From contig JAFXMW010000022.1 in the NCBI GenBank assembly GCA_017530105.1, forward strand, positions 1-36,565: a DNA stretch of 36,565 nt, in the 5' to 3' direction. Positions 11,382 to 14,147 of this stretch are shown piece by piece. The stretch is from Bacteroidales bacterium (GTDB lineage Bacteria > Bacteroidota > Bacteroidia > Bacteroidales > P3). The translations under genes and the position numbers were made by a program. Under the pieces are notes generated by a model, which did no database searches, had not been told where the DNA came from, and was given only the letters and a program-made list of their open reading frames with translations. Within the stretch, counting starts at the first letter, position 1. Each line of letters begins with the position of its first letter.

Positions 11382-11834
11382 ATGGAAGAAAAGAATGTCA
11401 TTGAGATCAAGAACAAACGGGCAGAGTATGAATACTTTCTGCTCGACGACTATACTGCGGGTATTGTGCTTACAGGCACCGAAATCAAATCCATCCGCGA
11501 CGGCAAAGCCAACCTCACCGATGCCTACTGCACCTTTATAGGCAACGAACTTTTTGTCCGCCAGATGCACATCTCCGAATACCGCTTCGGCTCCTACCTC
11601 AACCATGCCGCAAAGCGCGACCGCAAACTACTCCTCAACCGCCGCGAACTCCACAAACTGCAAATCAAAATCAAGGAACGCGGCTTCACCATCATCCCCG
11701 TCAAACTCTTCATCAATCCACAAGGACGTGCCAAACTGCTCATCTCTCTGGCTCGAGGCAAAAAGTTCTACGACAAACGCGAAAGCATCAAAGAAAAAGA
11801 CACCCGCCGCGACATGCAACGGGAATTACGATAA
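11382..11834 (+). CDS. smpB: SsrA-binding protein SmpB
   Basis: The 150-residue protein is full length and carries family signatures: [40 protein letters not shown], the [13 protein letters not shown] helix, and a basic C-terminal tail ([20 protein letters not shown]) that reads the empty ribosomal mRNA channel. SmpB binds tmRNA and is needed for trans-translation rescue of stalled ribosomes. The tmRNA gene itself is not seen in this window. It sits in the tight plus-strand run with an intergenic gap of 10 bp to lysC. Confidence 0.96.
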
Positions 11835-11844
11835 TCATCCACCC

Positions 11845-12984
11845 ATGAAAGTGTACAAATTCGGCGGAGCCTCCGTCAACAGCGCCTCGGCAGTACGCAA
11901 CATGGCCGACATCGTCCGCAGCCACCTCGACAATCAAACCCTCGTCGTCGTGGTCTCCGCCATGGGCAAAACCACCAACATGCTCGAACAGCTTGTCCCT
12001 GGAGTCAACCCCGCTGACCAACACCCTGCACTACTGCAAAAGGTCAAAGACTATCACCATACCATCCTGCACGACCTTTTCCCCTCCCCACAACATCCCG
12101 TCTACAACGCCGTCGGTCAGCTCTTCTCCCAACTTCAACAACAAAACTCACTTCCCCCCACCGACTACAACCTCGACTACAGCCAAACCGTCTGCTACGG
12201 TGAACTCATCTCCACCACCATCATCAGCCACTATCTCGACAGCATCGGCCTCCACAACCAGTGGATAGACATCCGCACCCTTATCCACACCGACAACCAA
12301 TACCGCGAAGGCAATGTCGACTTCACCGCTACCCAGCGCAACGTCGACTCCTCCCAACTCCGCTCCCAACCCCTCGTCGTCACCCAAGGCTTCATTGCCG
12401 GCAGTGCCGACGGCCACACCTCCACCCTCGGCCGCGAAGGCAGCGACTACAGTGCCTCTATACTCTCCTACTGTCTCAATGCCGAGAGCATGACCATCTG
12501 GAAAGACGTTCCCGGATTTCTCAATGCCGACCCCAAATACTTCCCCGATACCGTCAAGATAGAACAAATCCCTTACAACGAAGCCATCGAACTGGCCTAC
12601 TACGGCGCCAGTGTCATCCACCCCAAAACCGTCAAACCCATCCAAAACAAAAACATCCAGCTCCACATCAAATCCTTCCTCAACCCCCTCTCCCCCGGCT
12701 CCGTCATCGGTCCCTTCCCCACCATCCACCCCCTCACCCCCCTCTACATCTTCAAAAAAAACCAAACACTTCTCTCCGTTCTGCCCAAAGACTTCAGCTT
12801 CATAGCCGAAGATAACCTGCAAACCATCTTCGCCGTACTCGCCAAACTAAACATCCGCGTCAACCTCATGCAAAACACAGCCCTCAGCTTCTCCCTTTGC
12901 ATCGACGACAACCCCATGCTCCTCAACCAACTACGCGACAATCTCCAAGAGCAGTTCCTCCTCCGCTACAACCAAGGCCTGTAA
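11845..12984 (+). CDS. lysC: Aspartate kinase, cut short by an in-frame TAA
   Basis: Phosphorylates aspartate at the head of lysine, threonine and methionine synthesis. Start ATG 11845 gives MKVYKFGGASVNSA, followed by VVVVSAMGKTTNML, GREGSDYSAS and WKDVPGFLNADPK, all kinase-domain signatures. After about residue 300 comes an ACT-like regulatory part. The frame stops at TAA 12982-12984 after YNQGL, giving 379 residues, shorter than usual for the family. Directly beyond the stop, in the same frame, LITIRYYTQDIIDRI continues for 36 codons to TGA 13093-13095, matching the usual family C-terminus (NEGLEL-x-TIR-x-Y). The stop thus replaces what is normally Glu. The displaced end overlaps the aroB start as ATGA. 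Nonsense mutation, readthrough or sequencing error are the options; the kinase domain itself is complete. Confidence 0.9.
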   Translation: MKVYKFGGASVNSASAVRNMADIVRSHLDNQTLVVVVSAMGKTTNMLEQLVPGVNPADQHPALLQKVKDYHHTILHDLFPSPQHPVYNAVGQLFSQLQQQNSLPPTDYNLDYSQTVCYGELISTTIISHYLDSIGLHNQWIDIRTLIHTDNQYREGNVDFTATQRNVDSSQLRSQPLVVTQGFIAGSADGHTSTLGREGSDYSASILSYCLNAESMTIWKDVPGFLNADPKYFPDTVKIEQIPYNEAIELAYYGASVIHPKTVKPIQNKNIQLHIKSFLNPLSPGSVIGPFPTIHPLTPLYIFKKNQTLLSVLPKDFSFIAEDNLQTIFAVLAKLNIRVNLMQNTALSFSLCIDDNPMLLNQLRDNLQEQFLLRYNQGL

Positions 12985-13095
12985 CTCATCACCATACGCT
13001 ACTACACACAAGACATCATCGACCGCATTGTTGCCGACCGCACTATCCTCCTCCAGCAACGCACCCGAACCACCACTCAACTCATCATACAATGA
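12985..13095 (+). pseudogene. Displaced C-terminal end of aspartate kinase
   Basis: 36 sense codons in the lysC frame after the TAA, starting LITIRYYTQD and ending TQLIIQ before TGA. Codon use (C-ending) is the same as in lysC, and the TGA overlaps the aroB ATG, so this was recently, or still is, part of lysC. Confidence 0.75.
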
Positions 13096-14147
13096 CCCGA
13101 ACCATTCTCCCTTCTCGCATCTCCTCCCTCGGCCGTCTCAACCGCGTTCTCTCCGGCAAGACTTTCGACAACTCCCGTTTTTTTCTTATCGTTGACGAGA
13201 ACACCTACTCCCACTGCCTCCCTATCCTTATTTCCCACGTCGACCGACTCCATCAGGCCGAATTTATCGAAGTCCCCGCAGGCGAAGAGTGCAAAGACCC
13301 CGCCATCGCCTCTCAACTGTGGCAAACCCTCCTCGACTCCAACGCCGACCGCGATACCGTCCTTGTCAACCTCGGCGGAGGCTGCATCACCGACCTCGGC
13401 GGCTTTGTGGCGGCAAGCTACAAGCGCGGCATCCGCCACATCAACATACCCACCACCCTCATCGGCATGGTCGACGCTGCCATAGGCGGCAAAACAGCCC
13501 TCAATATCAATGGCAGCAAAAACCAAGTGGGTTTCTTCCACCAACCCGCTATCGTCTGCATCGAGACCTCCTTCCTCCACACTCTCCCTGATGCCGAAAT
13601 CATCAACGGCCTCTTCGAAATGCTCAAAACCTTCCTCATCGGCAACCGCAGCCACTTCCAAAGCCTCTGCCAGACAATACTCTCAGGCAGCCTCGACCTC
13701 CAGCCCGGCATGATTGCCGCCTGTGCCGAAATCAAGACCGCCATAGTCAAGCAAGACCCCCGCGACCTCGGCATCCGGCACATCCTCAACCTCGGCCACA
13801 CCTTCGGCCACGCACTCGAATCCTTCAGCCGCCACCCAGGCCAAACCCCTCTCGCCCACGGCACCGCCGTAGGCATAGGCCTCCTATGCACCCTCTATCT
13901 CTCCGTACGCAAACTCGGCCTTGACCCCTCCGTCCTCCAAAACTACCGCGCAGTGGCCGAAAAACTTGTCACCCTCCCGCACTACACCCTCCGCGACACC
14001 GAGGGCATCCTCGCCTACATGCGGCAGGACAAGAAAAACAGCGGCGGCGACATCTGCTGCGTTCTCCTCAGCGACATCACCGCCCCCGTCATCAACCTCC
14101 CAGTCCCTGAAAACGAAATACGCGATGCCCTCCTCAAAATCTCCTGA
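13092..14147 (+). CDS. aroB: 3-dehydroquinate synthase
   Basis: Second enzyme of the shikimate pathway; converts DAHP to 3-dehydroquinate using NAD and a divalent metal. The 351-residue protein shows LVNLGGGCITDLGGFVAA (91-108), the PTTLIGMVDAAIGGKTAL block (120-137), metal-ligand E176 in INGLFEMLK, and ILNLGHTFGHALES (231-244), with the third metal His in AHGTAVGIG (about 255-263; many homologues have HGEAV here). ATG 13092 overlaps the TGA that ends the extended lysC frame (ATGA), a typical coupling arrangement, and the encoded N-terminus MTRTILPSRI is short as in homologues. Confidence 0.94.
   Translation: MTRTILPSRISSLGRLNRVLSGKTFDNSRFFLIVDENTYSHCLPILISHVDRLHQAEFIEVPAGEECKDPAIASQLWQTLLDSNADRDTVLVNLGGGCITDLGGFVAASYKRGIRHINIPTTLIGMVDAAIGGKTALNINGSKNQVGFFHQPAIVCIETSFLHTLPDAEIINGLFEMLKTFLIGNRSHFQSLCQTILSGSLDLQPGMIAACAEIKTAIVKQDPRDLGIRHILNLGHTFGHALESFSRHPGQTPLAHGTAVGIGLLCTLYLSVRKLGLDPSVLQNYRAVAEKLVTLPHYTLRDTEGILAYMRQDKKNSGGDICCVLLSDITAPVINLPVPENEIRDALLKIS

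Follow-up and report, generated by a model that had tools for sequence, protein, structure and literature searches.

An in-frame TAA ahead of the conserved C-terminus in the single aspartate kinase gene detected in a Bacteroidales genome, possibly a recent nonsense change

In-frame stop codons of this sort have been described in bacterial genes and, according to Belinky et al. 2021 (PMC7918605), are mostly short-lived; the same study reports that bacteria widely carry in-frame stops under purifying selection. In E. coli reporters, the mean readthrough of TAA, the least leaky stop, was 0.01 to 0.05% of wild type, and readthrough was detected for 0.23% of TAA-ending proteins (PMC11126739, excerpts). 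Here, we analyzed a 36,565-nucleotide stretch of a Bacteroidales genome (hereafter the window), in which the aspartate kinase (AK) gene lysC ends at a TAA with a conserved continuation of its frame behind it (Table 1). The window comprises bases 1-36565 of contig 137 in a 2.75 Mb assembly of 146 contigs with 82.7% completeness and 3.7% contamination, and the TAA base at 12982 is known from one assembly consensus of one genome. Of the explanations weighed below, a recent nonsense substitution is the most likely, a consensus error comes a close second, and maintained readthrough is less likely than both.

Table 1. Features of the smpB-lysC-aroB region (window coordinates)
Feature	Position	Strand	Description
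smpB	11382..11834	+	Intact, 150 aa as in relatives; TAA terminator at expected length
lysC (aspartate kinase, AK)	11845..12984	+	379 codons closed by a premature TAA; encodes the catalytic and first ACT domains
Premature in-frame TAA	12982..12984	+	Residue 380; CAG or CAA (Gln) in close relatives
Remnant of ancestral C-terminus	12985..13095	+	36 codons; most of second ACT domain and original TGA
aroB, 3-dehydroquinate synthase	13092..14147	+	TIGR01357 297.8 bits, slightly below cut-off 305

The frame of lysC opens with an ATG, and its TAA directly follows ...RYNQGL. The codons past this stop (12985-13092) encode LITIRYYTQDIIDRIVADRTILLQQRTRTTTQLIIQ and are followed by TGA 13093-13095. Thus, the initial annotation, which had reported a TAA at 12982 after YNQGL, a 36-codon continuation, and a TGA overlapping the aroB ATG, was correct on the sequence itself. 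A separate small gene in the tail was ruled out, because an in-frame ATG, GTG, or TTG was sought within its 36 codons and none was present. As an open run alone, the tail is unremarkable: in-frame extensions of at least 36 codons occur in 93 of 317 ORFs sampled from the window and from 20 stretches of its genome, many of them entering a neighboring gene, and the other two frames across the tail are likewise open. It was judged real because it is conserved. The shortened LysC itself matches the TIGR00657 profile at 253.6 bits, above the curated cut-off of 208.7, and in alignments with relatives it retains the AK columns that are invariant among them (e.g., K5-S10, G196-D201, and H259-P260).

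To describe the codon at the stop site, 145 AK loci were reduced to 109 distinct contexts, the TAA of the window included. All nine distinct relatives with at least 75% identity (the window apart) have Gln at this position, encoded by CAG in seven and CAA in two. Gln is also found in 44 of 50 relatives at 55-75% identity, and below 55% identity Glu is the commonest residue (27 of 49). The Glu that had been proposed as the lost residue is therefore not borne out among close relatives, and the proposed single base change from GAA or GAG fails for the latter codon, since GAG to TAA needs two changes. Because close relatives all carry Gln, the most probable path to the stop, as judged from these alignments, runs from CAA to TAA; CAA was seen at this site in L032 and L035. 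In a separate comparison of 110 loci (L013 and L045 end before the site), as in every locus examined, we looked for relatives ending lysC at the same TAA, which the initial annotation had named as a refuting case, and found none. The closest loci belong to uncultured Bacteroidales or Bacteroidetes genomes, several of them from ruminants by title. Exact 24-base pattern and protein searches of viral_contigs for the same species gave no match.

We also searched 120 genomes of the genus. An AK match was obtained in 105, of which two (G006 and G126) stop short of the C-terminus. Among the remaining 103, a stop inside the match occurs only in the window's own genome, and its absence from the other 102 indicates that the AK C-terminus is normally kept. 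Recurrent truncation among relatives was accordingly rejected, and the view that the longer form is ancestral is upheld by the relatives' full C-terminus and their site codons. As the stop is confined to one genome rather than common to at least two, it was filed as a nonsense variant and not as a maintained readthrough stop. In two other genomes, the AK matches (G064:C31:130991-132279 and G041:C161:27714-28846) fall into two pieces in different open frames, which may reflect frameshifts.

The tail is well preserved. It shares 35 of 36 residues with L035, from which it differs by seven synonymous and one nonsynonymous changes (dS 0.30, dN 0.013). Against L031, eight synonymous and three nonsynonymous differences were counted, and against L036, which gives the highest ratio among the seven relatives L031-L037, 10.2 and 8.8, respectively (dS 0.49, dN 0.119). 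Across these relatives, dN/dS in the tail ranges from 0.04 (L035) to 0.24 (L036), compared with 0.14 to 0.26 in the lysC body; the region past the stop thus lies well under 1, as in the reported cases of purifying selection after an in-frame stop. Relative to the same seven loci, the tail has five window-private codons with a shared amino acid and one with a private amino acid, and the body has 33 and 22, respectively. Had the tail been unselected over the whole private branch, approximately 13.9 amino acid changes would be expected and one is observed (Poisson P of 1.4e-5 for one or fewer). The selection-free period covers at most approximately 35% of the private branch at P 0.05, a rough bound drawn from six private changes. 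A tail so well kept implies that the stop is young, that it is an assembly error absent from the living cell, or that it is read through.

Readthrough, whether by leaky termination, codon bypass, or a suppressor tRNA, would let full-length and short AK coexist and keep the tail under selection. The low dN/dS of the tail and the reported spread of selected in-frame stops are consistent with it, as is the detected readthrough of some TAA-ending E. coli proteins. However, an intact tail is equally well explained by a young stop, and of the stops in E. coli reporters TAA leaks least. Moreover, no suppressor tRNA with anticodon tta, cta, or tca occurs among the 39 tRNAs found in this 82.7% complete genome, which leaves the suppressor suggested by the initial annotation unsupported in that set. 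Slipping by +1 or -1 would likewise fail to bring the ribosome into the tail frame; the intact tail sits in the original frame, and programmed frameshifting was therefore rejected. On the whole, we regard readthrough as unlikely. It is more doubtful still that the stop is both real and kept, so that one gene, in a lineage that seems to use AK for diaminopimelate and lysine only, would yield a 379-aa AK freed from control by the second ACT domain and, where termination leaks, small amounts of the full-length enzyme. A reassignment of TAA to an amino acid would account for a single in-frame TAA that is followed by conserved sequence, and is contradicted by terminator usage: TAA ends 171 of the 317 sampled ORFs (mechanically defined, lysC included), smpB terminates with it at the expected length, and the asd and dapA matches are free of internal stops. 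A genetic code change was rejected on these grounds and is extremely improbable.

More weight is due to the idea that this metagenome-assembled genome carries a consensus or assembly error at the site, or a base from a minority strain, and we consider this a real possibility, not far behind the preferred reading. The living population would then carry Gln at the site and a full-length AK. The assembly is fragmented, incomplete, and slightly contaminated as given above, the stop occurs once among the 103 genus genomes in which the C-terminus is covered, constraint on the tail resembles that on the lysC body, and lysC is the only AK gene found and leads to diaminopimelate. On the other hand, homopolymers and repeats are absent from the stop site, and similar lesions are at least not common elsewhere, as read by eye from a reference-free screen of 317 mechanically chosen ORFs (artefact ORFs included) drawn from the window together with another 386 kb of its genome. 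This screen was judged without homology, and a downstream piece with an ATG followed by at least 40 codons is clipped at that ATG. Of 71 gene ends extended by at least 20 codons, lysC ranked 6th, and the other six extensions scoring at least 10 appeared by eye to be antisense or composition artefacts. In a variant halting at any overlapping ORF, the score of lysC was zero; the top one of eight extensions enters smpB, two of the remaining seven enter separate genes, and five resemble antisense artefacts.

The flanking genes say less about ancestry than had been thought. The aroB ATG (13092-13094) overlaps the ancestral lysC TGA as ATGA, and a conserved coupling of this kind had been offered as an argument that the longer form came first. 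Among the 13 closest loci (L031-L043), lysC ends in ATGA in eight, and aroB is overlapped in this way only in L040 and L041; as evidence of ancestry the motif is weak, and by this comparison ATGA is no steady lysC-aroB coupling. In L035, the lysC terminator is a TAA located 17 bases upstream of the aroB ATG. In G017, an 849-aa gene (L155:5190-7739) lies between lysC and aroB and overlaps the lysC stop as ATGA. A related gene occupies the same place in L031, L032, L034, L037, L157, and G027, a large gene follows lysC as far as the contig reaches in L033, and tblastn detected no relative of the 849-aa gene in the window.

Whether a broken AK could be tolerated depends on the pathway it serves. 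No second AK was detected in this genome at E values up to 10 (82.7% complete assembly). Each of eight genus genomes tested, the window's among them (G000, G017, G020, G026, G069, G110, G123, and G129), carries asd and dapA, so loss of the pathway was rejected. Homoserine dehydrogenase (PF00742) was found in none of the eight, with 14 of 14 controls positive, which suggests that there is no ordinary branch to threonine and methionine. It seems from this gene content that AK is used here for diaminopimelate and lysine only. A dead AK should then be costly, which makes a null allele less likely than a shortened AK that works or an error in the sequence. Counting against such a cost, an AK match is absent from 15 of the 120 genus genomes, three of which are 93-98% complete. 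These three (G020, G069, and G129) have no AK match, yet keep asd and dapA, perhaps owing to an assembly gap or a different AK.

The fold predictions drew on 66 of 78 distinct relatives in one case and on 48 in another. In the model, the stop lies in the strand (371-385) that joins the two ACT domains, and termination at residue 380 removes helix 389-396 and strands 401-406 and 410-415. In the AlphaFold model of the 379-aa form (mean pLDDT 94.6), the catalytic domain and the first ACT fold are kept and strand 300-306 is no longer assigned. The predicted loss of the regulatory ACT end thus holds, in the model, for the second domain, and the first is retained. The two C-terminal ACT domains of the aspartokinase III kind are not both encoded by lysC as written, which by its modeled fold descends from that kind and is not a member of it.

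The reading that we prefer, at even confidence, is a recent nonsense change near the end of the only AK gene found, leaving a shortened and probably still active kinase. A C-to-T substitution would have turned CAA (Gln) into TAA at residue 380, and ribosomes halting at 12984 would release a 379-residue AK that retains the catalytic domain and the whole of the first ACT domain and lacks the second. This enzyme probably still works, given that we found no second AK to supply diaminopimelate synthesis; its feedback control by lysine may be weakened or lost. aroB would lose its stop-start overlap with lysC and might be started independently or less well. The nonsense mutation or sequence error considered from the outset is supported by the singleton stop and by Gln in close relatives, as revealed by the comparison of related genomes.

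As it stands, the lysC stop has little consequence: it adds either a probably young nonsense variant or a base error to those seen in metagenome-assembled genomes. If real, it would offer a natural test of whether AK can function and remain under control once its second ACT domain is gone, in a bacterium whose one AK seems to serve cell-wall and lysine synthesis only. Within the accessible portion of the open-licence PMC literature, we found no report of an AK that has lost its second ACT domain alone. Compared with the lysine-sensitive aspartokinase III of E. coli (2J0W, 2J0X), the AK of the relatives is shorter at its end, and the window lysC as written is without the second ACT domain altogether. 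In contrast to the stops on which Belinky et al. 2021 (PMC7918605) focused, which are common to at least two species, the lysC stop is confined to one of the genomes compared and lies in the last tenth of a biosynthetic gene present as a single copy.
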